Translations under genes and position numbers: made by a program
Shown: positions 1,477 through 37,497 of the stretch, one piece after another
Position numbering within the stretch: position 1 is the stretch's first letter
Layout of the letters: each line of letters starts with the position of its first letter
The notes under the pieces: model-generated
Told to the model about the DNA's origin: nothing
What the model saw: the letters and a program-made list of their open reading frames with translations, nothing else
The model's database searches: none
IMG/VR virus record: IMGVR_UViG_3300037529_000004
Location: 1-37,619 of that record
Length of the DNA: 37,619 bases
From: a virus
Direction: 5' to 3' (one strand)

Positions 1477-1835
1477 TCGGCGGCCTCGGCCGGCGGGTCG
1501 GGCGGCATGCGGCGGGCGATGTCGGCAACCAAGGCGGCGACGATCTCGCCGAGCGGACGCAGGCCTTGGTGTTGGGACCAAATGGGGGGTTGGGACCGGG
1601 GTCGGGACCACGGAGACCCGCAGATTTCCTTACTAGGTCCCAACGGTCCCAACGGTCCCAACCTATTTTCTATACACGCGAGAGGGTCGGGGACCTTTCG
1701 CGTATACGGGCGCGCAGACAGGTTGGGACCGTTGGGACCTGCCCAATTTTTACAATGATTTAGGTTGGGACCTAGGTTGGGACCTAGGTTGGGACCGGGG
1801 CTTAGGTTAGGACCATTTTTCGGCGGTATTTCCAC
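1473..1835 (-). CDS. Low-complexity ORF over the GGTTGGGACC repeats; doubtful gene
   Basis: This frame is open from inside the end of the helicase-primase gene to a TGA overlapping the next ATG. Its first 90 codons translate the repeat tract as GPNLGPNL and LGPLGPLGP runs. Only the last 30 residues (LGEIVAALVADIARRM...) look like ordinary protein, a short amphipathic helix. Overlap with the next start suggests translation does pass here, perhaps from one of the TTG codons inside the repeats near 1640-1665. A real product could be a peptide of about 60 residues. Alternatively the whole stretch is non-coding and serves as a repeat-containing replication site. The true start cannot be decided from sequence. 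Confidence 0.3.
   Translation of the reverse strand: MEIPPKNGPNLSPGPNLGPNLGPNLNHCKNWAGPNGPNLSARPYTRKVPDPLACIENRLGPLGPLGPSKEICGSPWSRPRSQPPIWSQHQGLRPLGEIVAALVADIARRMPPDPPAEAAE
1571..1814. repeat. Iteron-like GGTTGGGACC repeat cluster
   Basis: About twelve copies of a 9-10 base unit lie in 244 bp. Plus-oriented copies (GTTGGGACC or one-base variants) start at 1571, 1588, 1601, 1721, 1731, 1763, 1775, 1787 and 1804. Three inverted copies in perfect 9-base tandem (GGTCCCAAC) occupy 1636-1662. The three copies at 1761-1796 form exact 12-base tandem repeats of TAGGTTGGGACC. AT-rich stretches (1663-1675, 1745-1762) lie between blocks. The cluster abuts the stop codon of the helicase-primase gene. 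Short clustered repeats in both orientations next to replication genes resemble replication-origin iterons, and similar GGGAC repeats accompany primase genes in other proteobacterial prophages. The origin role is inference. Confidence 0.75.
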
Positions 1836-3052
1836 TCTCTGTCCCTCCCGTTTCGCGCCCTAAACCGTTCAAAGTCAAGCTGTTTTAGGCAGGCGGCGAC
1901 CCGCATCTGACTTGCGCGGTCGTAATCCTGTTGCTTAAAGCCCAGGTCTCTGAGGCATTCGGCGACCGAAATCTCGTTGCGGGTTCCCACGATGTCCCGA
2001 ATCAGGTCGATCCAGGCATCGCTAGCCTGTCGTTCTTCCTGCACGGCTTTTGCCTGCTTTGTCAGATCGTCGGTGTCGAGCCACCAGACCTCTCCGGCGC
2101 GGTAACAATCGCGCGCCTCGGCCCAGAGCTGATCGCGCACGCCGCGCAGTCCCTCAATGTCGATCGTCCCGCAAGCCACGGGCCAGAACCGGCGCAAGCC
2201 GGTTTCGTCGCGGCCCCATTCGGTTTCGTTGGTCGTGGCGCAGAACACGGTCTGTCGGGCGAGGCGCACGACGGCGCGCCCATAAGGCGGGCGAAAGCGA
2301 TCGTGGGTGCGCGACAGGTACGCCTTAACGCGGGAGACGTCCCGGTGCTTGATCGAATCAAGTTCGGCGATCTCGATGATCCACACGCCCGAAAGCTGCA
2401 TCGCGGCGTCTTTGCTGCCGACCTCGGCGAGTTCGTCCGTGAACCAGTCGCCGCCCAAAATCTTTAGGGCCGACGATTTCAGCGTGCCTTGTTCGCCCTC
2501 GAGCACTAGGAGGCAATCCGCCTTGCAGCCGGGGTCGCAGATCCGTGCTATGGCCGAGATCATCCAGCGGGCGGAAACGGCGCGCATGTAGGCGCTATCC
2601 TCGGCCCCGAGATAGCGCAGGGTCCATGTGTCGAGGCGCTTTGTGCCGTCCCATTCCAGGCTATCGAGATAGGCGCGAACCGGGTGGAATGTGTTTGCGC
2701 TGGCGGTAAGCTCGGCGGCTTGGCGTACGATAGCGGGCGAGACGAAGATTCCGACGTGCTGCATCCATTTGGCGGCGCGCAAATCGTCGATGTCGCTCCA
2801 GTATTGCTGCCGCTGGTGATCCCAGATCTCGTTCGCGAAGGCGTCGAAGGCGAGGCGCCCGGCCCATTCCTCGGACAGACGCAGGGCTGTTTCGGCATTC
2901 GCCATCAGGGCTTTCGGCTTGCCCTCCTGGTTTTTGATCAGCAGGTCTTTCCAGTCGCCGTTGCCGTAATTTCCGGAAGCGACGGGCCGGCGGCTCTTGC
3001 GCTTTTGCGCCGGCCGCGGCGGGATCGGGGACGGCCCCTCAAACACAGGCAT
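1802..3052 (-). CDS. VirE/VapE-family helicase-primase ATPase
   Basis: 416 residues, a VirE (virulence-associated E, PF05272-type) replication ATPase. An N-terminal segment (residues 45-130) leads into the P-loop domain: Walker A GEQGTLKS at about 186-193, Walker B WIIEIAELD at about 224-232, the sensor-like FCATTNE at about 270-276, and an arginine-rich LRRFWPV at the expected arginine-finger position. These are SF3-like ring-helicase features. The protein likely unwinds DNA for phage replication. The start at 3052 has GGAGG seven bases upstream and overlaps the previous gene by 14 bp; an earlier ATG at 3184 lies in the overlapping gene and lacks comparable support. No Toprim or AEP primase motif is visible, so priming may be done by the upstream protein or the host. 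Confidence 0.92.
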   Translation of the reverse strand: MPVFEGPSPIPPRPAQKRKSRRPVASGNYGNGDWKDLLIKNQEGKPKALMANAETALRLSEEWAGRLAFDAFANEIWDHQRQQYWSDIDDLRAAKWMQHVGIFVSPAIVRQAAELTASANTFHPVRAYLDSLEWDGTKRLDTWTLRYLGAEDSAYMRAVSARWMISAIARICDPGCKADCLLVLEGEQGTLKSSALKILGGDWFTDELAEVGSKDAAMQLSGVWIIEIAELDSIKHRDVSRVKAYLSRTHDRFRPPYGRAVVRLARQTVFCATTNETEWGRDETGLRRFWPVACGTIDIEGLRGVRDQLWAEARDCYRAGEVWWLDTDDLTKQAKAVQEERQASDAWIDLIRDIVGTRNEISVAECLRDLGFKQQDYDRASQMRVAACLKQLDFERFRARNGRDREWKYRRKMVLT

Positions 3053-3635
3053 GCGCCGCCTCCACCGTTGGGGCGCGCCAAGGGCAGGCGAGGGCACGGC
3101 GCAGGGTGCGGGCGTGCGCTTCGTCGGCGGCGACAAGACCGCCCAGGCAACCGGCCAGGATCGGATATTGGTCGGCGGGTTCATCGGACAGCAGCACCAG
3201 CCCGCTGCGGCCGGCGCGCAGCCAGTCGAGCGCCGAGCGGTGTATAAGCACCGCCTCCGGCTCTAGGTACTGCGGCTCGATACAGCCGAGCCACGTCGCG
3301 GCACCGACGCGCAGAGCCATCTGCTCCGGCGCGCTCGGGTGCCAGGCGACGAGATCGACGATAGGCCCCCACTGCGAGAAGATGCGCGGTCGGCGCGATT
3401 GCGGGGTTGTGCCCCTCTCCAGCCGCACCGGCGTCACAACGACGACATCACCGTTCGGCGCAGGCGCATAAAGACCATTGCTGATCGAGACGCGCTCGAT
3501 GCCGCACAGCCCGCGGTGGCCGTCGATGTCGCGCGCGTCGATGCCGAGATCGATCAGCGCGGCGCGGTAGTCGGCATCGAGACGGCCCGCGGCGGCGCGC
3601 ATTTCCGCGCGCAAATCAATCGGTTTCTCAGGCAA
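3039..3635 (-). CDS. Phage replication-module protein of unknown function
   Basis: 198 residues. I choose the TTG at 3635 because GGAGG lies six bases before it; reading back to an ATG at 3761 would translate the structured leader. The N-terminus is a helix (PEKPIDLRAEMRAAAGRL...). The body has beta-strand segments around GDVVVVTPVRL, IVDLVAWHP and RVGAATWLGCIEPQY, then HRSALDWLRAGRSGLVLLSDEPAD and a final helix pair. The SGLVLLSDE-like strand recalls Rossmann or Toprim-type folds, but no catalytic motif can be assigned. Similar proteins sit directly before VirE helicase genes in other alphaproteobacterial phages, so a primase accessory role is possible. It overlaps the helicase-primase by 14 bp, which suggests coupled translation. 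Confidence 0.7.
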   Translation of the reverse strand: MPEKPIDLRAEMRAAAGRLDADYRAALIDLGIDARDIDGHRGLCGIERVSISNGLYAPAPNGDVVVVTPVRLERGTTPQSRRPRIFSQWGPIVDLVAWHPSAPEQMALRVGAATWLGCIEPQYLEPEAVLIHRSALDWLRAGRSGLVLLSDEPADQYPILAGCLGGLVAADEAHARTLRRALACPWRAPTVEAAHACV

Positions 3636-15664: not shown

Positions 15665-18472
15665 TCAAAAATAGGTGATGACGTAGGCCGAGCCCGCGCC
15701 GCCGTCGCCGCCGTTGCCCTGAGTGGGAGTGCCCCCGCCGCCGCCGCCGCCGCCGCCGCCAGGGACCGCGCCGTTGCCGCCCTTGCCGCCGGTGCCGCTC
15801 GTGTTCGCGCCGCCGCCGCCGCCGCCGGTGCCGCCGCGGGTGCTGTTGCCGGCGGTGCCGTCACTGCCGACTGCCCCGGTTGCTGCTCCTGCCGCGCCGC
15901 CGCCTCCCGCTGAGACGGTCGTTACGTAGGTGTTTACGCCGCCGCCCGCGCCACTTGTGCCGGCGGCATTGCCGGTCGTGATGCCGCCGGCGGCGCCGCC
16001 ACCACCCGCGCCGTAAAGCGATGGACCCGCCGCGGCACCGGCCCCGCCGTTAGCGGCAGAGCTGCCGCCGCCGCCGCCGCCCCATTCGGCTCCCATCTGC
16101 GACGCGCCGCCGCCGCCGCCGACACCGGGCAGTGTGCTCGAAGTGGTCGGTAGACCACCGACTGCCGCTGCGGTGCTGCCAGCGTTTCCTGGGCCACCAC
16201 TGCCGCCCCCGCTGCCACCTGACGAGCCCAGAGTGGTGCCGCCGCCTCGGCCGGCGCCCCCGCCGAACGAAGTGAACCGCGTCCCGAACGCCGTGTTGCC
16301 TCCGGCGATCCCGTTGCCGGCACTGGTGGTCGCACCGCCACCTCCCGCGCCGATCGTCACCGTCTCCGATACGCCTAAATCCGCCGCTGCGAATGTGCGG
16401 ATTACGCTCGCGCCGCCGCCGCCGCCAGAACCGCCGCCCCGCGCGCTTCCGGCTGCCGCGCCCACACCAGCGCCGCCGCCGCCGCCGCCGCCGTACAAAA
16501 TGACCGTCACCGCAACCGCGCCGGCCGGCTTTGTCCAGGTCAGCGTTCCCGCAGTCGTATAGGCGTCAATTTGAGTGGCACTGGCGCCCGTTGTTGCCGG
16601 CGCGCTGTTCGCCTGAATCCACGCGGAGCTATCGGGGTCCGTGTAGTAGACGAAGAGCTGCCCCACACCTACCGCGGAACACCACCACAGGTCGCCCGCT
16701 ACGGGAGCCGGCGATGTTGGCGCGGTGTCCGATACCGTGACCCTGGCGCCCCCGGTCGCGACCGTCGTCCAACTCGGGTTGCCCGAGCTGCCGCCGGTCT
16801 GCAATAGCTGGCCCGACGTGCCCGGCGCCAGTGCCTGCCAGGCGGATGCGCCCCGGAACAGAATCGATCCGCGCGCTGACGAAAACACGGCATCGAGCAC
16901 CGCCGAAACGGTCTGCCCGGTGGCTGTCGCGGTGCCGCCCGTCAGGTTCGCGAGCATGTTTAAGGAGGCGATCGGTGCGCCCGTCACTGCTGCGGCCCAA
17001 GCCGGGTTCGCTGCCGAACCGCCCGAGGTCAGCACTTGGCCGTTCGTCCCCGGTCCCAGCGCCGCCCAACCTGTGGCGGCGCGGTAAAGAACTGAGCCCT
17101 GTGCCGAACCGAGGATTGCATCGAACAGCGCCGACAACGCGGTAGGAGTCGGCGCCGTGCTGCTGCCGGAGATGTTGGCGAGCAGCGTTTGGTTAGCAAC
17201 AGATGCGAGCGACACGCTGCCGGAGCCGGTGATCGGCGCGCCGCCCGTGCTGATCCCGCTGCCGGCGTTGATGCTGGTCACGGTGCCGCCGCCGGCCGGA
17301 CTTGTCCAGATAAGGTCGGCGCTGGCGCCCTGCGATGTGAGCGTCTGCCCGATAAGACCGGGCGCCAGGCTGACCCAGCCGCCGATTGTGCGGGTCAAAA
17401 CGCTGCCGCGAGCGTTGCTCAGCACAACATCCAGAAAGGCCGACAGCGTGTGCGGCGTCGGCGGCGCAGACGCGCCGGAGATATTCGACAAAAAATTCCG
17501 ATCCGGCACCGGATCGAGCGAGACGGTGCCGGTAGCGACGATCGGCCCCGCGCCCGTGCTGATCCCGGTGCCCGCCGTGATGCTGGTCACGCCCGAGCCG
17601 CCCGGCGCCCACGCGGGGTCAAGGCCGGGTCCGTTGGTTTTTAAAAACTGGCCGGAGGTGCCGGGCGGCAACACGGTCCAGCTTGTGCTCGACCGATAAA
17701 TGATCGTGCCCGCGACCGTGCTGGTGAACACATAGTCGAGGTAATCGCTTAAATGCGTCGGTATCGCCGGCCCGGTTACGGTCGAGGCATTTGCCATCAT
17801 CGTGCCGGGGCCGGATGTCATCCCGGCCGGCAGCGCATCGACGTATGCTTTGTTAACGACATCGCCCGGATTGACCGGCGCGGCCATCCCGGTGATCGAG
17901 CCGCCGGTGATCGCGACGTTAAATGGCTCCTGGAACGCCAGGTCGCCAAGATGCCTGTTTGTCCACTTATACCCGATCCCGCCGTCGTGGTACGTCCACA
18001 CCAGCGCGTCGCCGACCGATTCGACAGGGTCGATATAAACGTCGCTAAGCCCACTCAAGCTCGCGTCAACGCTGCCGAACAACTGCAACCAAACGAGCGT
18101 GCCGCCGATTTCCTGGTTGATGTCGAACGTGGCGCCGGACGTATGGCTGACCTGGCACATAAAAATGCCGGTGAACTCCACCGATATGACATCGAGCGCG
18201 ACATAATCCGCGCCAGCTTCCCACTCGCCGCGCCAGCGGAAGGAAAGCACCGGCAGAGTAAATGGGCCGAGCACCGTGCCGTCGGTCAACGAGATATACA
18301 TCTGCGTACCGGAGACGGTGATGCTGGCAATCCCGACCGGCTGCGCCGGGTTTGTTTGCAGCGCTACGATAGCTTCGGCGAGCGACCAGAAATTCGTATC
18401 GACTTCGCTCGGCTGCAGGTTTGCACCCTTGCCTGATCCCCACGGTCCCAAGGTGCGATAGGTGATGTCCAC
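15665..18472 (-). CDS. Large tail fiber with tandem modules and glycine-rich tip
   Basis: 935 residues. Residues 1-160 look like a fiber base (TYRTLGPWGSGKGANLQPSEVDTNFW..., then a WRGEW...ADYVALDVI module as in carbohydrate-binding or fiber shaft repeats). Four related 65-residue modules start near 227, 327, 430 and 504, each with LxNxxG..TA.T..LSA.LDxVxxSxxGSxLxR....W..LxPGTxGQxLxTxG....PxW; two are followed by VTSIxAGxGISTG linkers. From about 655 to the end the protein is glycine-rich, with runs of 7 or more Gly, as in fiber tips built of polyglycine helices that bind receptors. DNA is correspondingly CCG-rich. It overlaps the preceding gene by one base and is very likely the main receptor-binding fiber. 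Confidence 0.88.
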   Translation of the reverse strand: MDITYRTLGPWGSGKGANLQPSEVDTNFWSLAEAIVALQTNPAQPVGIASITVSGTQMYISLTDGTVLGPFTLPVLSFRWRGEWEAGADYVALDVISVEFTGIFMCQVSHTSGATFDINQEIGGTLVWLQLFGSVDASLSGLSDVYIDPVESVGDALVWTYHDGGIGYKWTNRHLGDLAFQEPFNVAITGGSITGMAAPVNPGDVVNKAYVDALPAGMTSGPGTMMANASTVTGPAIPTHLSDYLDYVFTSTVAGTIIYRSSTSWTVLPPGTSGQFLKTNGPGLDPAWAPGGSGVTSITAGTGISTGAGPIVATGTVSLDPVPDRNFLSNISGASAPPTPHTLSAFLDVVLSNARGSVLTRTIGGWVSLAPGLIGQTLTSQGASADLIWTSPAGGGTVTSINAGSGISTGGAPITGSGSVSLASVANQTLLANISGSSTAPTPTALSALFDAILGSAQGSVLYRAATGWAALGPGTNGQVLTSGGSAANPAWAAAVTGAPIASLNMLANLTGGTATATGQTVSAVLDAVFSSARGSILFRGASAWQALAPGTSGQLLQTGGSSGNPSWTTVATGGARVTVSDTAPTSPAPVAGDLWWCSAVGVGQLFVYYTDPDSSAWIQANSAPATTGASATQIDAYTTAGTLTWTKPAGAVAVTVILYGGGGGGGAGVGAAAGSARGGGSGGGGGASVIRTFAAADLGVSETVTIGAGGGGATTSAGNGIAGGNTAFGTRFTSFGGGAGRGGGTTLGSSGGSGGGSGGPGNAGSTAAAVGGLPTTSSTLPGVGGGGGASQMGAEWGGGGGGSSAANGGAGAAAGPSLYGAGGGGAAGGITTGNAAGTSGAGGGVNTYVTTVSAGGGGAAGAATGAVGSDGTAGNSTRGGTGGGGGGANTSGTGGKGGNGAVPGGGGGGGGGGTPTQGNGGDGGAGSAYVITYF

Positions 18473-29254: not shown

Positions 29255-29889
29255 CGCAGTTGCGCCAGGACTGCCGCGATCATCTGAGAGAACGGCTGGT
29301 AAAAGTCCTGACTGAAGGACCGACCGTCTTCGAACGTCAGCGTCAGCACACCCTCGGAGCTCAGGGTCATTGCTGCCAAGCCCGGGCCAGGTGGTCCGGG
29401 CGGGCCGGTAACGGCGTCTCCCCGGTCGCCTTTAGGGCCGGGGGGGCCTGCTTTGCCGCGTGGGCTGAGGAGCTGCCAGCCATCGCCCGGACATGGCCCC
29501 GGATCGTCCCGCAAGGCGACAAACGAGCTGCCGCCGAGCGCCACGACCGAAAGCATATCGTAAGTCTCGCCCTCGCCGTAGGTGCCGCGAACGGTAAACG
29601 AGCGTCCATCCGTGCCGTCGCGGCCGGGAGGCCCTTCGATGCTCTCGCCGGGATCGCCTTTCGGGCCGGGCGCGCCGTCTTTTACATCGAGCAGACGCGC
29701 CGCCATTTTGTCGCAGAACTCGACAGAGGTTCGTGTGTAGCCGATCGTTGCCTGAGCATGGGCCGCCTCCAGAGCGGCGATCTTCGCGTCGAACTCGGCC
29801 CGCAATGCGGCCCAGCGCAGATCATTTTCCCGCTCGATCTGACCGACTGCCGCGCCCAACTCCTCGGCGAGCACCTCGTCACGCGACAA
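29251..29889 (-). CDS. Collagen-like repeat protein between portal and connector
   Basis: 212 residues from a TTG at 29889 with GGGAG seven bases upstream; an ATG at 29946 would lie inside the portal gene. An N-terminal coiled coil (SRDEVLAEELGAAVGQIERENDLRWAALRAEFDAKIAALEAAHAQ) is followed by Gly-X-Y repeats: GAPGPKGDPGESIEGPPGRDG and, later, GKAGPPGPKGDRGDAVTGPPGPPGPG. Between them lies a YDMLSVV module (SFTVRGTYGEGETYDMLSVVALGGSSFVALRDDPG), common in phage fibers. The C-terminus is LTFEDGRSFSQDFYQPF. The mix of coiled coil and collagen suggests a trimeric fiber or whisker on the head-neck. It overlaps the portal by 11 bp. Confidence 0.75.
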   Translation of the reverse strand: MSRDEVLAEELGAAVGQIERENDLRWAALRAEFDAKIAALEAAHAQATIGYTRTSVEFCDKMAARLLDVKDGAPGPKGDPGESIEGPPGRDGTDGRSFTVRGTYGEGETYDMLSVVALGGSSFVALRDDPGPCPGDGWQLLSPRGKAGPPGPKGDRGDAVTGPPGPPGPGLAAMTLSSEGVLTLTFEDGRSFSQDFYQPFSQMIAAVLAQLR

Positions 29890-31243
29890 GGCTGCGCTCC
29901 CTGTAGCGCGCAGAGCGGAACGCGAATCGTTTGCTTGCGGCACCATCGGCGTTCTCCGCCTGGTCGTTGGCCGGCCCTTGCGGCTGCGCCGGTTGCGGAT
30001 TGGGCGGCTGGAGGTTCGCGCCGTAGGAGAGCGGTACATCCTGCTGCTGCACACGAATCTCGTCGCCGCCCTCTACTGGTGGCAGCTCCTCGGAACTGCG
30101 GGCCTCATTTATTGTGAAGACGCGATGTGTGCCGGTTGTCAGTGCTTCGATCCGTTCCTTGAATGCCGATCTCAGCAATACCGATGTATCAAATTCGGTG
30201 TACTCGTCCCGGCCACCGCTTAACTTGAAGAGAGCATCAAATCCAAGCTCGATGTGGTTCAATGTGAACCCCAACCCGGTCGATAGCCACGCCTGATTGA
30301 GAATCTCGGTAGAGCTATAGGTCGTCTCGCCAAGGCCGAGAACTTGCAGCGGGATGCGGTGCGCGAGCGCGATATTCGCCGCGCTCATCTTGAGCAGTTC
30401 AGCAAGCTGCGCATCGACCGCAGAGGTAGACAGCGGAAATGGTTTCATCCCGCCAGTCAGGATCAGCGGCAATCCCTCATTCATCCCGCTCAGCCGTTCG
30501 CTGACCTTATTGCGCAAGGCATCGGTTTGCTCGAGGGGGAACTTTTCCTCGGTGCCGAGAATGAACGAGCTGCGCGCTTGATTCTGGAAAAAAATAATCT
30601 GTTGCTGCAACGCGACATTGTACATACCGAGGTCCAGGGCCGCCGAGAGGATCGGGCTTTCGCCCTTTAGTGGGTGGCGGGGCGTATGCAGCCGGACGTG
30701 CAACACATCGCGCGCCGGCACGGGAGACGATAGGTCGAAACGGCCGTCTACTATTTCATTGCCCGACAGGCTGTAATGGATGCTACCGTCCTCGGCAAGC
30801 GCTACCTGGCCGTCGCGCATTAGGTGGAGTTCTGCGATCTCGGCGCGGTTGTTCCTGACGGCATACGCATAAGCGTTGCCGCTTTGGTACAAAGCGCGGG
30901 TGAGATTAAGCAAAAAGTCGCTGATACTTTGGTAATCGTTCGGCCGGCGCAACATCCGGCTGAGCGCCGAATTGGTTACGCGCTCGCGACCGCCATTCGC
31001 GAGGCCGCGCCAATGATCGCCCGGCAGCATCGCCACGGTCTGCGAATAGGCGCTTTGGCACGCCTCGACCATCGCCGAGCGTTCCCCATAGGGCTGCGGG
31101 TTGTAGCCGGACTGCCAGAAATTCAGATACCGGCCCCAGCTCGCGGCAATGACGCCGTCATTGGTCAGCCACGGGCCGGGACGGTATTTCCCCTCGGCCG
31201 CCTTGCCTTTCCACAGCATCGGCAGCCGGGAGAACAGGCTCAT
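29879..31243 (-). CDS. Portal protein (HK97 family)
   Basis: 454 residues. It carries the HK97 portal pattern: ACQSAYSQTVAMLPGDHWRGLANG, SALSRMLRRPNDYQSISDFLLNLTRALYQSGNAYAYAVRNN, then LHLMRDGQVALAEDG, VLHVRLHTPRHPLKGESPILSAALDLG and LKMSAANIALAHRIPLQVLGLGETTYSSTE, followed by a helical clip and a polar C-terminus (PPNPQPAQPQGPANDQAENADG). It makes the dodecameric DNA gate at one head vertex. ATG follows the previous stop directly (TAAATG). Unusually, it lies downstream of the capsid gene. Confidence 0.93.
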   Translation of the reverse strand: MSLFSRLPMLWKGKAAEGKYRPGPWLTNDGVIAASWGRYLNFWQSGYNPQPYGERSAMVEACQSAYSQTVAMLPGDHWRGLANGGRERVTNSALSRMLRRPNDYQSISDFLLNLTRALYQSGNAYAYAVRNNRAEIAELHLMRDGQVALAEDGSIHYSLSGNEIVDGRFDLSSPVPARDVLHVRLHTPRHPLKGESPILSAALDLGMYNVALQQQIIFFQNQARSSFILGTEEKFPLEQTDALRNKVSERLSGMNEGLPLILTGGMKPFPLSTSAVDAQLAELLKMSAANIALAHRIPLQVLGLGETTYSSTEILNQAWLSTGLGFTLNHIELGFDALFKLSGGRDEYTEFDTSVLLRSAFKERIEALTTGTHRVFTINEARSSEELPPVEGGDEIRVQQQDVPLSYGANLQPPNPQPAQPQGPANDQAENADGAASKRFAFRSARYRERSLVA

Positions 31244-31558
31244 TTAGCGCGTCGTGTAGCCGGGGCCACGGTCGGCGGGCTTTACGTCGCGCTCTTGACG
31301 GCCTTCGCGCGGTCTGCCGCCGGCAAGCGCACGCTCGCGAATCTCGTCGGCCTCCTCTTGTGTCGGCACCGGCGTTTCCGGCGGCTTGCCGAGGTGCTCG
31401 GCAATCTGCTTGTCCGCCTCGTCACGCTCGCGCTCGCCCTCGGCGTGCGGCCTGTCCGCCGGACGCGGCACGTTGCGCGTCGCCGCCTGCGTTCGCTCGC
31501 GCTCCTGCCGTTGCCGCTCCTCTTGCTGCTGCTCCGGCGTTCGTGTGGTCTCTGCCAT
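31244..31558 (-). CDS. Highly charged disordered protein
   Basis: 104 residues, about half of them Glu, Arg, Asp or Gln, with no hydrophobic core (AETTRTPEQQQEERQRQERERTQAATRNVP, RDEADKQIAEHLGKPPETPVPTQEEADEIRERALAGGRP). AAAGGAG precedes the ATG. Probably intrinsically disordered with a short helix in its middle. It lies between the HNH gene and the portal and ends one base before the portal start. A role as capsid or portal assembly aid is possible because of its place and character; there is no direct evidence. Confidence 0.6.
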   Translation of the reverse strand: MAETTRTPEQQQEERQRQERERTQAATRNVPRPADRPHAEGERERDEADKQIAEHLGKPPETPVPTQEEADEIRERALAGGRPREGRQERDVKPADRGPGYTTR

Positions 31559-31572
31559 GGTGTGCTCCTTTC

Positions 31573-32670
31573 CTATAGTAAACGGCCTTGCGCTCGCGCG
31601 TACTCAATCGGGTCTTTATCGTTCTTATCGAGATTGCATTTCGCGCACGTCCATTGCAGGTTTGTCTTATCATTTAGGCCGCCGCGGGATAGCGGCACGA
31701 TATGGTCAAGGTGTCGTTTGACCTTTCGCAAATCGGTGCCGCAGTAGACACACTTATAATTCTGCGCAACGAGGAGCGCTCTAATCTCTGCCGCCGTATG
31801 TGTACCCGTCGCGTTCTTTTTAATAGCGCGCCGCCTATGGACATACGCAAGCACTGTCTCTGGATGCTTCTCGCGCCACTCCTTCTGATACTGCCGCCTA
31901 GCTTCTGCATACGATGCATCTTCACGATACTTGTCTCGAAGGCGCTTATTATAAACGGTCTCTCTGTAGTTCCGGGGCTTCTCCGGGTTTGCTTTCCGCC
32001 ATCGCTTAGTGGCTTCCCGCCGCGCCTCCCGGTTCCTCTGATAATCCTCTCTTTGTCTTTGGTTGAGGCTTTCCTTATTGATCTCTCTATATGATCTTTC
32101 TTGTGCGCGAAGTGCGTCGTAGTTTTCCTGTCTATATAATTTCTTGCGGGCGAGTCGTGCATCGCGCTGTGGCCCAGGCTGCGCCCGCCGGCTCCGCATT
32201 CTGGCATTGATAAGATCCCTGTTTGCATCTTGGTATTTATGCAGGCTGGCGCGTATCTTTTCAGGATTTCTGGCTCGATGCTGCCGATCTCGCTCGCGTG
32301 CGGCTTCAGGATCGGCGGCTCTGCGAACGGCTGCTCTTTCGCGTTTGCATTCGACGCACGAAAACCCGGAAACCGTTCTTTCAGCAATGTGCCCATGCGG
32401 GCATGGCTTACCGGTGAAGTATCGCAATCGTCCCTGTGCAACCGCTTCGTCGCGAGAGACAACATTCGTAAGCTCATAGAACGTTGCCAAATATGACAAT
32501 AGGTCAGCATGAATCCACGGTCGGGAATCGCTGATCGCGCGACATTCGACACATTGCTTGTTACTGGTAAGACGCTCGACAACGTGGCCCCGATAGCACG
32601 GGTCACCAGTAAAGTACCGCTGCAAGCCCTGCGCCACCGCGTCGGCGCGTGATATGATCGGACGGTCCAC
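31573..32670 (-). CDS. Homing-type HNH endonuclease with duplicated Cys/His modules
   Basis: 365 residues from a GTG at 32670. The N-terminus has two copies of one module: SRADAVAQGLQRYFTGDPC, RGHVVERLTSNKQCVEC (residues 7-43) and SRDEAVAQGRLRYFTGKPC, HGHIAERTVSGFSCVEC (72-108), each with C...GH...CxxC, a zinc-binding pattern. Then come about 180 residues of very charged helix (Arg, Glu, Gln, Asn rich), and a C-terminal HNH: YKCVYCGTDL, KRHLDHIVPLSRGG, NLQWTCAKCN. DNA-recognition modules linked to an HNH domain are typical of free-standing homing endonucleases. The gene is clearly more AT-rich than the surrounding late genes and interrupts the capsid-portal order, which suggests recent insertion. 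Confidence 0.88.
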   Translation of the reverse strand: MDRPIISRADAVAQGLQRYFTGDPCYRGHVVERLTSNKQCVECRAISDSRPWIHADLLSYLATFYELTNVVSRDEAVAQGRLRYFTGKPCPHGHIAERTVSGFSCVECKRERAAVRRAADPEAARERDRQHRARNPEKIRASLHKYQDANRDLINARMRSRRAQPGPQRDARLARKKLYRQENYDALRAQERSYREINKESLNQRQREDYQRNREARREATKRWRKANPEKPRNYRETVYNKRLRDKYREDASYAEARRQYQKEWREKHPETVLAYVHRRRAIKKNATGTHTAAEIRALLVAQNYKCVYCGTDLRKVKRHLDHIVPLSRGGLNDKTNLQWTCAKCNLDKNDKDPIEYARAQGRLL

Positions 32671-32755: not shown

Positions 32756-34654
32756 TTATGGGCCGGATGGTGCCCACGATGAGTTATTGGTGTACTGCAC
32801 CATCCCGTCACGCCGCATCGCCCAGGTAACCGTGAGTAGCATTCTGATTGCGATTTGCGCGGTTTGATACATGCTCTGAACTGGAGCGGCCACTGTCGCA
32901 GGTGCCCCAGGTGCCGAGATGTGTAACGGAGAGGTGTCCTCCATATGGAGCGTGGCCTGCTCGGAGGTATCGAACTCAAACCCGCCGAACACCGTCACGA
33001 GGTCCGCCGCGTCGAGGACAATCACCGTGCCGGGCGCCACCGTCGTGCTCTCCACGATGGTGAACCTGGCGGTAAACTGTGCCGCCCAGCCAAAGCTGCC
33101 ATCAGGCCCCGGCGCGAAGCCGAGCTGCATCGACTGCTCCGGGTTCATGATGAGCACCAGCGTGCGGCCGGCATTGGCAGCGTAGAACGGCGCCGTCAAA
33201 GCCGAGATGTCCGCCAGCGCCGCGGCGTAGCCCCCGGCTGTACTGGCCGCCGTTGCATTGATGCCGAACAGGATGCCGGCCGGGCGGATCGCGCTGCCGG
33301 CTGTGGCATCCAAAAACAGCGTGTCGATCGTAAGGTTAGTATCCTCAGTGATCGCGTCGCGGATGATGCCTTCGATGGACGGGTTCGAGTACCGCGCCAT
33401 CTCCCGCGAGAAGACGCTGATGCCACCCATCTTGTGCGGGCTCAAGAGGATCGAGGTCAGGCCCAGCCGGCGCACCGGGATGGGACTTGCCTCTCCGACG
33501 AACGCGCCGGAAATGCTCGGTGTCGCTGCCCGTGAGGGGATCTTTATGACACCTTGCTCGGGACCGAAATTGAGCTGCGTCCCGGCAGCTGCAACACGGG
33601 TGAAGACGGGCGCCGGTGTCAGCGTCGCAAGCCAGGCCGCGGTGCCCTCCTGCACCAGATCGCCCGCCCAGGCCGGCACCGATGTCAACGCACCCGATAC
33701 CGCCGCGCGTGTCACCCAGCCGGTTGCCTCGGCGTCGGGATAGCGCTCCAGCGGATAGCGCTCGCGCAGCGTGTCCTCGATCGACTTGCGCTGGGCCACC
33801 GCGCAAAACTGCGCTGCCGCGGCGCGCCACATGTAGTCGCCCTTGTTGACCTGCGGCGCCGGTGTCCCGAGCGGACGACGTACCGCCGGCAGTTGCGCCG
33901 GCTGCTCGACCGCGCGCAGCGCCAGGCTCTTTTCGGTGCGCTGCTTGGAGGCTAGATCCTTTTCGAGGTACTCCACCTCGTCGTTGAGCTGTTGCGCCTG
34001 CTCGATGTCGTGATCCGGGTTTTCGACATGCGCATGCAGCGCATCCCTGGCGGCGTTTAGTCTGGTTTGTACGTCTTCGATCTGCTGTGAGATGTTCATC
34101 GTCGTTGCCCTGGTACGGGGCTTCCTGTCGGCGTGCTTGCCGGGTGAAATGGAGCGGGTGATTGTCGCGGCGTGCTTGCCGAAAACCAGCTCCATCGTAT
34201 CGTCGGAGATGTCCAACGATTTCGCGATTGCCAGCGCCGCCGGATTTGCCGGAACGCTAACAATACTTGTTTCAACGAGTTCTTGTGATTTGTACCGTGT
34301 GCCGCGCGTGCCCTTGATCGGCTCGGCCTCGATGCCGTGAAAACCGACACTCGCGGCGCGCAGAACACCTTGTTCGACGAGCTTGCGTACCTCGTCGGCA
34401 ATGCGGCTGGTGCCCGGCTCGGCCGGTTGAAACTCGGCCATCAGCGCGTCCTTCGTGACGCGGACATTGCCCCATGTGCCGATAATCTGATCCGGGCGGT
34501 GGTTGAATAGAGCGATCGGGTTGGAACGGAAATTGTCCAACTGCCAGCCCTGCGGCTCCACGATGTCGCCGTACCTGTCTACCGTGGCGTCGCTGAGGAC
34601 ATAGGTAAGCGAGCCATTCGCCTTGCCGGCGGCAGCTTTGCGGATCAAGGTCAT
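32756..34654 (-). CDS. Prohead protease-scaffold-major capsid fusion (HK97 type)
   Basis: 632 residues joining three parts. Residues 1-170 are an S78-type prohead protease: TVDRYGDIVEPQGWQLDNFRSNPIALFNHRPD gives the catalytic H52, AASVGF gives S102, and VETSIVSVPANPAA is the conserved family motif. Residues 187-247 are a coiled coil like the HK97 delta domain scaffold. From about 270 the HK97-fold capsid follows, with TSVPAWAGDL, KIPSRAATPSISGAFVGEASPIPVRR, LSPHKMGGISVFSREMARYSNPSIEGIIRDAITEDTNLTIDTLFLD and the C-terminal AQIAIRMLLTVTWAMRRDGMVQY. Usually protease and capsid are separate genes; here the fused protease would cut the scaffold away. An internal ATG at 34099 (M186) could allow separate capsid synthesis. 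No Shine-Dalgarno precedes the first ATG. Confidence 0.93.
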   Translation of the reverse strand: MTLIRKAAAGKANGSLTYVLSDATVDRYGDIVEPQGWQLDNFRSNPIALFNHRPDQIIGTWGNVRVTKDALMAEFQPAEPGTSRIADEVRKLVEQGVLRAASVGFHGIEAEPIKGTRGTRYKSQELVETSIVSVPANPAALAIAKSLDISDDTMELVFGKHAATITRSISPGKHADRKPRTRATTMNISQQIEDVQTRLNAARDALHAHVENPDHDIEQAQQLNDEVEYLEKDLASKQRTEKSLALRAVEQPAQLPAVRRPLGTPAPQVNKGDYMWRAAAAQFCAVAQRKSIEDTLRERYPLERYPDAEATGWVTRAAVSGALTSVPAWAGDLVQEGTAAWLATLTPAPVFTRVAAAGTQLNFGPEQGVIKIPSRAATPSISGAFVGEASPIPVRRLGLTSILLSPHKMGGISVFSREMARYSNPSIEGIIRDAITEDTNLTIDTLFLDATAGSAIRPAGILFGINATAASTAGGYAAALADISALTAPFYAANAGRTLVLIMNPEQSMQLGFAPGPDGSFGWAAQFTARFTIVESTTVAPGTVIVLDAADLVTVFGGFEFDTSEQATLHMEDTSPLHISAPGAPATVAAPVQSMYQTAQIAIRMLLTVTWAMRRDGMVQYTNNSSWAPSGP

Positions 34655-34668
34655 AATGTCAGGCCAAT

Positions 34669-34691
34669 AAAAAAGGCCCCGAAAGGGGCCT
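34669..34691 (-). terminator. Strong terminator-like hairpin just before the capsid gene
   Basis: Minus strand: AGGCCCC-TTTC-GGGGCCT followed by TTTTT, a 7-bp GC stem with a tetraloop and U tract, ending 15 bases before the capsid ATG and beginning 26 bp after the kinase gene stop. It would split the late operon into a terminase module and a structural module unless antitermination or a hidden promoter operates. It is the best intrinsic terminator in the window together with that at 13611. Confidence 0.8.
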
Positions 34692-34716
34692 CGTGTGTGG
34701 GTGCTGTTGACTTCGC

Positions 34717-35265
34717 CTAGCCGGCGGCGTTCACTGCCTCCGGCCAGCCATCCAGGCCGATCGTGCGCCCCGTTCCGAGAACCACAACATCATCCTCGCG
34801 CAACGCGAACAACTCGAAATACCGCCGCACCGCAGAGGCGCGCACCGGATCATCACTGACCCGCGCCAGGCACTCCCGGAAGGGCGTTGTCACAACAACA
34901 ATCGCCTCCGGCTGCAATCTGTCCTGCCACCACTGCCGCCACGTGGCACACGGCTCGCTAACGATGAACCAGGCCCGCGGCCAGGGCGGCTCGGCATTCG
35001 ACAGCCGTAACAGGTCGTGGTTGCGCCGCTCCAGCGCACGCGCTAACCAGCGATCCTTCTGCGCCTGCGTCGGGTGCGCCGTGGAAGCTCCGGCGTAATC
35101 GAGAATGATCTCATCCAGATCGAGCACCAGATCCCCTGGCTGGCTGTACTGGCGGACATAGTGCGTCTTTCCGGCTCCCGGTGCGCCGGTAACGATGACA
35201 AGCGGGATGGTCGAGGGCTTCAGATAGGACGGATGGGCGCGTTGCTGACCGGGTGACGATCTCAT
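34717..35265 (-). CDS. P-loop kinase-like ATPase
   Basis: 182 residues. Start at 35265 overlaps the previous stop as ATGA. Walker A is GAPGAGKT at residues 27-34 after an IPLVIVTG strand; VLDLDEII then acts as the D-x-D motif (LID-like), with a helical middle and VVVTTPFRECLARVSDDP and RRYFELFALREDDVVVLG near the end. The pattern is that of zeta-toxin/polynucleotide-kinase-like P-loop proteins found near phage terminases, often fused to HNH domains. Here HNH is separate. The substrate is unknown; DNA-end or small-molecule phosphorylation is possible. The terminator at 34669 lies just after it. Confidence 0.75.
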   Translation of the reverse strand: MRSSPGQQRAHPSYLKPSTIPLVIVTGAPGAGKTHYVRQYSQPGDLVLDLDEIILDYAGASTAHPTQAQKDRWLARALERRNHDLLRLSNAEPPWPRAWFIVSEPCATWRQWWQDRLQPEAIVVVTTPFRECLARVSDDPVRASAVRRYFELFALREDDVVVLGTGRTIGLDGWPEAVNAAG

Positions 35266-35498
35266 CTCTGTTCCGTATGGCGTGCCATGTATTCGCCGCA
35301 CCAATCGGTCGGGCTGGTTCTCGGAAAATCCGCTTGGCTGGCGCATTGGCCGACAAGGTCTAGCGCCTCTTCATCCCGTCGCGAAATCGCCAGGCACAAA
35401 CCATAAAACTCCGTCAAGGACGGTCTCGGCGCGTGCCGGCGACATTCTTCGGATGGATCATCATAAAACCTGCAATTCTCGCATCGCACGTCGCTCAT
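35262..35498 (-). CDS. Small Cys-rich, likely metal-binding protein
   Basis: 78 residues; start overlaps the terminase stop (ATGA). SDVRCENCRFYDDPSEECRRHAPRPSLTEFYGLCLAIS...DWCGEYMAR holds CxxC (C6, C9) with further cysteines at 19, 35, 52 and 67. The CxxCxFx...eCrRxAP...DWCGE pattern is a small family found in phages, probably binding zinc or an iron-sulfur cluster. The partner is unknown. It lies between terminase and the P-loop kinase in a coupled block. Confidence 0.7.
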   Translation of the reverse strand: MSDVRCENCRFYDDPSEECRRHAPRPSLTEFYGLCLAISRRDEEALDLVGQCASQADFPRTSPTDWCGEYMARHTEQR

Positions 35499-37021
35499 GC
35501 GACCATGCTCAGTACGTCCAACGGGTCGGCGCTCTCCAATGGCGCGACGCCTGCCATCATTGCCAATGCCACCGCGCCATCAATGCGGCCCGCGCTCTTG
35601 TGCTTGGCGAGCTTGCGGTTGCCGGCGTGGTCGGTCTCAACAACCGCGTTGCCCATGCACATCGTCAGCACCGGATGCCCGCCATGCGCAAGCCGCTGGT
35701 TCAGGATCTCGGCTTCCAGAGCACGCAAGGCTGGCGACATGCTGTAGTAACCCTGGCCGAAATCAACAAAGTGCTCATCAAGCTGCTCCTCGGTGAACCC
35801 GGCTTGTAACAACCACGGACGCAGATGCTTCATGCCCCAGCGGTCGAACGCCACCTTGCGGACATCGTACTCGTCGAAGATGCTGCGCAAATACTCGGCA
35901 ACATATTGATAATCCACGCTCTTGCCCGGCGCCGCCAGCAGATAGCCCTGATCGTGCCAAATGTCATACGGCACGCGATCGGCGCGCGCCTTGGCATGCA
36001 ACGTGTCGCCTGGCAGCCAGAATGTCGGCTCGATGTGCCAGATGCCATCAATGCACGCACCCAGCACAAGCGCCGTCAAATCGGCCGTACTGGACAAATC
36101 CAATCCGGCATAAACCGGATAGCCGGCCAATGATTGCACATCGCCACCACATGCCGCCCAAACGCTGCGGGAAACGAACGGTGTGCTCGCCTCGACCCGC
36201 TGGTTCAGATACAGCCAACGAAACGTGCTCTCGGCTGTCGGCATGCGCGTGGCGCGCTCTGCCGCCTCCTCCACGTCCTGCAGAGAGCGGAAAATGCCTA
36301 AGGCCGGGTTAGCCGCTTTCCACGCCTCCCGGTCCATCAGATCGCACTCCTCCGGCGCGGCATGGACGTGAGAGACAATGTGCGGGTCTTCGGAGATGCG
36401 CGCATCGTCCAGCCAGCGTGAAAACAGGTCGTTCGGCGACGGCGCCTGCGTCGATATGGCAATCAAGAGGCTCTTGCCGGCATAGGCCCCTTGGCTGGTC
36501 TCGATCGCCTCGATAAAGGCGTCATAGGGACCGCGAACCTGCCCCACTTCGTCCAAGATTGCCACAATTGGCGAGCCGCCATGTGCGCCCTTGGCCTCCG
36601 CCGCGATCGCCTGGTACTCGACGTTCATCGGCAATCCCACCAGCGTCTTCTGACTCGGCACCGGCTTGATGATGCCCCTCAATTCCGGGCCGAGCTGCAC
36701 CATCTTGGCGGCGTAGTTGTAGACCTCAGCCGCCTGCTTGCGGCTCCTGGCCCCGGAGATGATGCGCGAGTTTTGGTATGCCTCCGGGCCGACAAGATGC
36801 GCCAGCAACAACATCGCTATCGTGCTGGTTTTTGAGTTCTTTCTTGCCATGCTGAGATAGGCCCGGCTCGTCCCCGCCGGGTTGTCGTACACGTCCAGGA
36901 TGAAACGCTTCTGAAAGTCCAGCAGCTTGACCGGCTGGCCGAGCAGCACACCCTCGGGCACGCGGCAATAGGTCTGAATAAATTGAACTACCTTCTCACC
37001 GCGGGTCATCTCTGCGGCCAT
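35495..37021 (-). CDS. terL: Terminase large subunit
   Basis: 508 residues. The ATPase domain has the deviant Walker A SMARKNSKTS (57-66), as in HK97-like terminases, and Walker B VAILDEVG (153-160 with D157 and E158). The C-terminal RNase-H-like nuclease has GLDLSSTADLTAL as its first acidic motif, DQGYLLAAPGKSVDY, VAFDRWGMKHLRP with its aspartate, and IDGAVALAMMAG near the end. The enzyme drives DNA into the procapsid and cuts genome units. ATG overlaps the terS stop by one base (TGATG). Confidence 0.96.
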   Translation of the reverse strand: MAAEMTRGEKVVQFIQTYCRVPEGVLLGQPVKLLDFQKRFILDVYDNPAGTSRAYLSMARKNSKTSTIAMLLLAHLVGPEAYQNSRIISGARSRKQAAEVYNYAAKMVQLGPELRGIIKPVPSQKTLVGLPMNVEYQAIAAEAKGAHGGSPIVAILDEVGQVRGPYDAFIEAIETSQGAYAGKSLLIAISTQAPSPNDLFSRWLDDARISEDPHIVSHVHAAPEECDLMDREAWKAANPALGIFRSLQDVEEAAERATRMPTAESTFRWLYLNQRVEASTPFVSRSVWAACGGDVQSLAGYPVYAGLDLSSTADLTALVLGACIDGIWHIEPTFWLPGDTLHAKARADRVPYDIWHDQGYLLAAPGKSVDYQYVAEYLRSIFDEYDVRKVAFDRWGMKHLRPWLLQAGFTEEQLDEHFVDFGQGYYSMSPALRALEAEILNQRLAHGGHPVLTMCMGNAVVETDHAGNRKLAKHKSAGRIDGAVALAMMAGVAPLESADPLDVLSMVA

Positions 37022-37497
37022 CAGTGCGGATGCGCAATCAATCCATCATCGACCCGTGCCGATTGCAAGACGCCGGCCTCGATCGCCTTGGCCCCATCCC
37101 TTCGCTTCGCTATTGCCTCGTGCTTACCCTCCGCAGCGAAGGCATGCAGCGACAGTGTACGGCGTAGCTGCACCACAGCCATAGTCTGCATCTGCACCAC
37201 CTGCTTGCGCGGGTTGAGGGTCGGTACACCATGATGGCCGGACACGACGCCGCCCTCGATGCGCAACATCGCCTGCTCTCTCGTCAAGTCCGCCATCGCC
37301 CGAGCCAATAAAGCGGCAACCTCAATCTTGTGCGTCGTCCATTCTGCTTTGGGACATTCATTGATGATTGCATTAAACAACGGAATATCTTCAAGCTCCA
37401 GCGGTACAGTAGGTGGTGGATGTATTACCTTTGTTGCGGCAGCAACAATTCGTTGTGTTTCAGTTAGTGTGTTGATGGGATTGCGTTTGGACTTCAT
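37021..37497 (-). CDS. terS: Terminase small subunit
   Basis: 158 residues of mainly helix. An N-terminal segment (NPINTLTETQRIVAAATKVIHPPPTVPLELEDIPLFNAIINECPKAEW) includes a helix-turn-helix-like pattern, followed by helices (HKIEVAALLARAMADLTREQAMLRIEGGVV) and an NPRKQVVQMQTMAVVQLRRTLSLHA core, as in P27-type small terminases. It recognises the packaging site and controls the large subunit. It lies directly before terL, from which the assignment gains most weight. No Shine-Dalgarno is seen; the region in front may carry the packaging site. Confidence 0.82.
   Translation of the reverse strand: MKSKRNPINTLTETQRIVAAATKVIHPPPTVPLELEDIPLFNAIINECPKAEWTTHKIEVAALLARAMADLTREQAMLRIEGGVVSGHHGVPTLNPRKQVVQMQTMAVVQLRRTLSLHAFAAEGKHEAIAKRRDGAKAIEAGVLQSARVDDGLIAHPH

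Follow-up and report, generated by a model that had tools for sequence, protein, structure and literature searches.

A conserved in-frame start codon and a linker RNA structure in fused prohead protease-capsid genes suggest two nested head proteins

In lambda C/Nu3 and herpesvirus UL26/UL26.5, a protease is fused to an assembly protein, and a nested in-frame start yields the assembly protein alone. Fusion of the protease to the capsid protein itself is a stoichiometry puzzle, as a protease on every subunit would seem greatly in excess. Sections of published papers describe such protease-capsid fusions in Arthrobacter phages of clusters AM, AU and AN and in Rhodococcus phage RRH1 (PMC5513430), thaumarchaeal proviruses in which a typical prohead protease and the capsid protein are fused (PMC6563490), and a possible case in Lactococcus phage Nocturne116, where Pseudomonas phage PAJU2 is also remarked on (PMC8306868); the terms searched in a further paper (PMC11893012) returned nothing on the subject. 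The database record of PAJU2 ORF003 carries the note 'prohead protease fused capsid protein', the JLK-2012 record reads 'putative major head protein/prohead proteinase', and NCBIfam NF045541, a 634-position model named 'prohead protease/major capsid protein fusion protein', describes the same kind of fusion. A literature search by title and abstract found no report of internal starts in protease-capsid genes.

We analyzed one virus record of 37,619 bases (the window) whose minus strand carries a fused gene of 632 codons in one frame without an internal stop (Table 1). In minus-strand reading order, the neighborhood runs terminase small subunit, terminase large subunit, P-loop protein, fused gene, HNH endonuclease, small gene and portal. 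A sequence-only reading of this DNA had described protease, scaffold and capsid in one frame as a rare head-assembly solution. The single frame was borne out, with the same layout in relatives, while the rarity was not, since the arrangement is known from cultured phages, a full-length PHROG family and published papers. What this analysis adds is the conserved start codon at the junction and the RNA structure in the linker.

Table 1. Features of the fused gene and its surroundings in the window; residue numbers refer to the 632-residue protein.
Feature	Position	Strand	Evidence or remark
Terminase small subunit	37021-37497	-	phrog_5601
Terminase large subunit	35495-37021	-	
P-loop (AAA_33) protein between terminase and fused gene	34717-35346	-	best PHROG phrog_4581, E 5.4e-20
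Terminator-like hairpin with T-run, 18 bases before first start codon of fused gene	34673..34692	-	
Fused prohead protease / delta-like segment / major capsid gene, 632 aa	32756..34654	-	phrog_617 'major head protein', residues 3-626, E 9.5e-78
S78-type protease domain, residues 1-163	34166..34654	-	Pfam; H52, S102, E128 invariant; T4 gp21 fold, Z 12.1
5' arm of predicted outer RNA stem P1	34189..34196	-	7/8 pairs with two-sided changes; 62.2% of cells paired
Predicted RNA hairpin P2, CGGC-AAGCAC-GCCG	34168..34181	-	95.0% of cells paired
Flexible, hypervariable linker, residues 164-185	34100..34165	-	pLDDT <50 at 165-183; indel-rich in relatives
3' arm of predicted outer RNA stem P1	34148..34155	-	
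Predicted RNA hairpin P3, same 14 bases as P2	34129..34142	-	95.8% of cells paired
AGGG, Shine-Dalgarno-like, 8 bases before internal start	34108..34111	-	duplex energy -3.1 kcal/mol
Internal in-frame start codon, M186	34097..34099	-	start codon at junction in 75/75 distinct fused genes examined
Delta-like (scaffold-like) segment, two helices, residues 186-248	33911..34099	-	AlphaFold2 helices 188-210 and 217-248
HK97-fold capsid domain, residues 271-632	32759..33844	-	Pfam and fold matches
HNH endonuclease	31573-32670	-	endonuclease VII-like PHROG
Small gene	31244-31558	-	
Portal	29879-31243	-	
Match to tail fiber assembly family	15665-18472	-	
Helicase	1802-3184	-	

The window protein matched Peptidase_S78 (PF04586) at residues 44-143 (34.0 bits, gathering cut-off 21) and Phage_capsid (PF05065) at residues 368-525 (39.1 bits, cut-off 24.2). 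NCBIfam TIGR01554 also scored above its cut-off for the capsid (32.1 against 27.5 bits), and TIGR01543 fell below its cut-off for the protease (38.9 against 59). PHROG 617, whose family name does not mention a protease, was a full-length profile match covering 15-625 of 626 model positions. Membership of NF045541 was rejected, with 30.9 bits against a cut-off of 525 and a match limited to residues 32-256. The H52/S102 pair picked out by the sequence-only reading was invariant, together with E128, in 72 of 72 aligned fused proteins, so that the protease motifs are present in the alignment; we take the three residues to be the catalytic His and Ser and the acidic third residue of an S78 protease.

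Structure prediction, suggested earlier as a check, showed the protease, the two-helix delta-like segment and the HK97-fold capsid. An AlphaFold2 model built from 72 aligned proteins (mean pLDDT 82.7, pTM 0.48) placed the protease domain up to about residue 163, followed by a disordered stretch at 165-183, the two helices, a second disordered stretch at 247-265 and then the capsid; because the pTM is low, the model describes the domains and not their placement relative to each other. Folded alone, the protease domain reached a pLDDT of 86.0 and best matched T4 gp21 (5jbl_B, Z 12.1, rmsd 2.6 over 132), with herpesvirus assembly proteases well below at a middling Z of 4.0-6.9. This fold comparison was used in place of a search of solved structures with the protease profile, which returned no match. 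By sequence alone, the solved-structure match was weak (E 0.028). For the capsid, the 50 fold matches listed were all HK97-fold proteins (Z 15.5-18.4) with HK97 at the top (2fs3_A, Z 18.4, rmsd 12.3 over 263; 2ft1_G, Z 18.1, rmsd 3.2 over 248), in line with the full HK97-fold capsid claimed before. Residues 188-248 form two confident helices ahead of a disordered stretch in the predicted structure, and this delta-like segment may be removed during maturation.

A search for other fused forms, also suggested by the sequence-only reading, found many. Fifteen phage records covered 80% or more of the query within a single location, and the proteins of RHph_X2_26 and FSL SP-016 aligned to the window protein over its whole length; genome contigs searched with the window protein gave six pattern matches and no relative. 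A search with only the window protein gave 17 loci; 14 of these covered nearly the whole query, 12 as one uninterrupted frame and two (L008 and L009, identical) with one in-frame stop. Two IMG/VR profile scans matched at least 586 and at least 537 stretches. The counts given here come from the 80 best matches of each scan, a sample that yields no frequencies of fused and split genes, and the other stretches may or may not be fusions. Counting the window, and seven contigs fetched twice with other flanks, 180 entries had a profile match, and 165 of these held the architecture in one frame. The 15 entries left out comprised six split loci, three identical entries whose capsid part contains an in-frame stop, five genes cut by contig ends, and KM1. 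At less than 80% identity to each other, the 165 full-length genes reduced to 75.

PAJU2 ORF003 shares with the window its domain order, a gene order running from the terminase through the fused gene and one or more small genes to the portal, and an internal ATG at the junction, which is codon 197 in PAJU2. The two proteins are about 25-26% identical. The two differ in that the PAJU2 ATG is preceded by AGGAGGG, with a much stronger Shine-Dalgarno energy (-10.8), and in that its linker hairpins have GCG-type loops. In the records of Rhodococcus phage RRH1 and of two Arthrobacter phages, Circum and Decurro, compared with the window by gene layout and junction signals, protease and capsid likewise lie in one gene with a junction ATG and Shine-Dalgarno, but the portal gene comes before the capsid gene.

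Several observations concern the surroundings of the fused gene. The best PHROG of the P-loop protein is named terminase small subunit, though phrog_5601 already marks another gene as such. Of 74 distinct genes, the window's included, 10 had a terminator-like hairpin within the 110 bases preceding them, compared to 0.4% of 1423 random windows; their sequences vary from phage to phage, and by eye one also precedes the separate capsid gene of KM1. The HNH endonuclease gene stands free between capsid and portal and has weak Cas9d/IscB HNH similarity. About 1 kb at 31618-32666 has no DNA alignment to L002 and L003, both 93-96% identical on either side, and L005 has almost nothing in its place; the gene is probably a mobile, homing-type gene. 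One sequence present as L008, L009 and L028 has an in-frame stop in the capsid part (codon 396 of L008) where others have Glu (E388 in the window), in an otherwise open frame, as a nonsense variant, suppressed codon or assembly error would give. Across 1802-26596 (minus strand), six of ten further proteins scanned had no PHROG match at 1e-5.

The internal ATG that the sequence-only reading had pointed out as M186 was correctly placed, and its counterpart recurs throughout the family. When a start was sought 3-13 codons upstream of an aligned anchor residue (I192 in the window), all 75 fused genes had one in frame, ATG in 70 and GTG in 5; in windows of equal size from other parts of these genes, the corresponding figures were 22% for ATG and 41% for either codon. 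An MNIS motif directly followed the indel-rich linker in 17 of 17 junction-spanning rows (the window and 16 of the 17 first-scan loci, several near-identical). The start was present in 30 of 30 genes from a scan with protease-side patterns only and in all 36 genes of the other branch without the MNIS pattern (36 of 42), indicating that it is not an artifact of the search patterns; cultured phages supply the other three of the 75.

The junction start also carries a ribosome-binding signal in these genes. Shine-Dalgarno duplex energy with the 16S tail averaged -6.3 kcal/mol at the junction and -2.5 at 1052 other in-frame ATGs (p 5e-23, which overstates independence among related sequences). Synonymous recoding with each gene's own codons predicted -4.3 in place of the observed -6.3 (Wilcoxon p 1e-9, too small for the same reason). 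Local folding was weaker at the junction start (-7.1, against -12.3 at other codons), and the start was more often unpaired than controls both in the window's branch (branch A, 0.58 vs 0.38) and in the PAJU2-type branch (branch B, 0.56 vs 0.38). Taken singly, 11 of 75 genes passed p<0.05 in the synonymous test and in 33 of 75 the junction start ranked in the best 5% of its own gene. Over 74 genes the internal signal was about as strong as the best 5' signal, and stronger in 41. From sequence comparison, internal initiation is likely in the fused-gene family.

In the window gene itself both start sites are weak. The first ATG has almost no Shine-Dalgarno (duplex energy -1.5), and the internal start ranks at 0.39 among the gene's codons and 0.035 within the linker, with p 0.38, not significant, in the synonymous-codon test. 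A conserved in-frame internal start with a ribosome-binding signal, the mark of a nested dual start, is thus a property of the group that the window shows weakly, and because both of its start sites are weak, the case for internal initiation in the window is one of homology. The sequence-only reading had expected one protease per capsid subunit unless M186 made extra capsid protein. Since the junction start is found in 75 of 75 distinct fused genes, with a Shine-Dalgarno stronger on average than at other in-frame ATGs, the 1:1 stoichiometry is unlikely, and the suspicion that M186 matters was well placed.

Six split loci from the PAJU2-side scan (five distinct: L122 and L123, which are alike, L177, L147, L114 and L180) have protease and capsid in separate frames, which overlap in L177. 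In the capsid frame of all six, an ATG aligns with the junction, and inspection shows a Shine-Dalgarno-like stretch ahead of it, consistent with capsid translation beginning there. The gene pair seems to move between split and fused states, the capsid start staying put. In the actinobacterial fusions, an ATG lies by eye just after the protease part, at codon 274 in RRH1 (-5.7), 160 in Decurro (-5.8) and 165 in Circum (-9.0), and equal or stronger Shine-Dalgarno energies occur at other in-frame start codons of these genes too.

The linker directly before the internal start holds a conserved RNA structure that the sequence-only reading missed. In branch A, a linker tetrapeptide G-x-x-A is present twice (GKHA and GKHA in the window). 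Over the 42 branch A genes its two variable residues matched in 62% of cases within a phage and 26% between phages (0 of 2000 permutations), and the tetrapeptide codons were identical in 118 of 129 cases compared to 46% expected; copy 2 was picked by distance to the start, and none of the 42 genes was dropped, not even the three whose registers are evidently misplaced (L077, L088 and L091). The 12-mer GG[CG]NNGCNN[CG]CC, which forms a small hairpin with a hexaloop, reached a density of 10.3 per kb over the 150 bases leading up to the internal start, compared to 0.27 per kb elsewhere, with at least one copy in 39 and at least two in 26 of the 42 genes. Gln in the 12-mer is encoded by CAA in 23 of 23 cases, though the genes use CAG 749 times and CAA 333 times.

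The structures on which covariation was counted had been picked by eye, from individual folds of the very sequences counted. In branch A, 12 of 16 pairs in the hairpins and outer stem had changes on both sides, and 79.9% of cells were paired, compared to 74.3% in shuffles and 29-47% when the structure was slid; the covariation score was reached by 0 of 500 shuffles and the number of further pair types by 37 of 500. The outer stem P1 is the weaker part. Unguided RNAalifold recovered both branch A hairpins, but with a covariation term of 0, and the unguided branch B run did not recover both hairpins as drawn. The two GCG-loop hairpins of branch B had 31 cells with two-sided changes compared to 14.0 in shuffles, the number of pairs with such changes being reached by 12 of 500 shuffles, and in 25 of 33 genes the 140 bases leading up to the start contained at least two such hairpins (at least three pairs), compared to 2% of 396 windows taken elsewhere. 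Amino acids in branch B change together in ways that keep the stem, as at columns 115/128 (CG 15, GC 11, GU 2, AU 1, UA 1), and compensatory changes fall at both synonymous and amino-acid-changing sites.

A covariance model of the branch A structure found one site in the whole window record. Across 34 sources it gave 23 matches at E <1e-4, at the junction and mostly its own build sequences, and the next matches, at E 0.007 and 0.018, are probably chance; among the branch B and split loci of these sources there was no match, KM1 appearing only at E 0.25. The two branches thus have elements alike in design, which their sequences do not establish as one family. GCG-loop hairpins of at least four pairs were also sought in the split relatives L122, L177, L180, L147, L114 and KM1, with both found in L122, one each in L177 and L180, one plus a hairpin of another kind in L147, and none in L114 or KM1. 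Rfam 15 gave four weak matches over 33900-34760, all within 34572-34760 and below gathering scores, and none in the linker. Fold z-scores over -112..0 were modest (mean -1.3 in branch A and -1.2 in branch B), and in the branch B window -120..-8 only -0.7 where other gene windows reach about -1.0, making fold stability alone weak evidence. Overall, the linker RNA structure is very likely real.

Pairing of P2 with P3 was considered and is not favored, as on inspection their loops are alike and not complementary. A further small hairpin lies directly before the internal start (34107-34121, minus strand, in the window), with the Shine-Dalgarno in its 3' arm, for example CCCCTCGTAAGGGG in L012; by eye, and uncounted, it is present in many of 22 branch A genes folded singly. 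On average, the Shine-Dalgarno was not more paired than controls.

Several other readings of the gene were weighed. A frame or assembly error joining two genes, raised by the sequence-only reading as a possible source of the fusion, is contradicted by the recurrence of the same single frame across metagenome contigs and cultured phages, in 165 of 180 entries (some contigs counted twice), and we rejected it as very unlikely. The long protein could instead be the sole product, each subunit carrying one protease that excises itself after assembly, an autocatalytic polyprotein as proposed for PAJU2. One open frame, room for cuts in the flexible linker and the second disordered stretch, and the weak Shine-Dalgarno at both window starts agree with a sole product, but the junction start in every distinct fused gene, the group signal above synonymous expectation and the ATG at that place in the capsid frame of split relatives make it unlikely. 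That same ATG, and the mixing of fused and split forms in one family, would also suit an unused relic of a once separate gene pair. Yet the start persists after a hypervariable linker in fused genes that share about 25% identity, its Shine-Dalgarno exceeds synonymous expectation and the RNA around it is open, so that a relic appears improbable.

The repeated tetrapeptides, for their part, could be protease cleavage sites and not an RNA element, since their variable residues agree within a phage more than between phages, as expected if one protease reads both copies. The agreement extends to the codons, however, Gln is always CAA against the genes' own preference, and compensation reaches synonymous as well as amino-acid-changing sites; cleavage sites are disfavored and seem a poor prospect, the motif by eye not being repeated at the delta-capsid boundary of the window.

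We propose that the gene probably makes two nested in-frame products, protease-scaffold-capsid and scaffold-capsid, in a ratio of protease to capsid other than 1:1. Initiation at 34654 would give the full protease-linker-delta-capsid chain, and initiation at the internal ATG delta-capsid alone. Both chains would co-assemble, so that only part of the subunits carried a covalently tethered protease inside the prohead, and after assembly the protease would free itself and cut off the delta segment near residues 247-270, so that the mature HK97-fold capsid remained. The nested product of lambda C/Nu3 and UL26/UL26.5 is scaffold only, whereas that of the window would be scaffold plus capsid. The structured linker RNA, directly before the internal ribosome-binding site, would probably influence the ratio of the two products.

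The RNA element sits where a translational control element would, and we tentatively suggest that it may gate the internal start. Twin hairpins with like hexaloops, joined by the outer stem in the window's branch, may gate the internal site, setting the ratio of protease-bearing to protease-free subunits or, bound by a head protein, feeding back on it. If so, the constraint would perhaps run from RNA to protein, with linker residues varying in pairs because the RNA must pair. Like-loop hairpins might just as well bind a protein or act on mRNA processing.

If true, the nested start would solve the stoichiometry puzzle posed by the fusion, and it predicts a measurable second product in culturable phages, PAJU2 first. 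Annotations and mass-spectrometry searches that hold the long product only may miss a capsid precursor. The linker RNA, seen in two forms and in both branches studied, is a candidate regulator located within a coding region.
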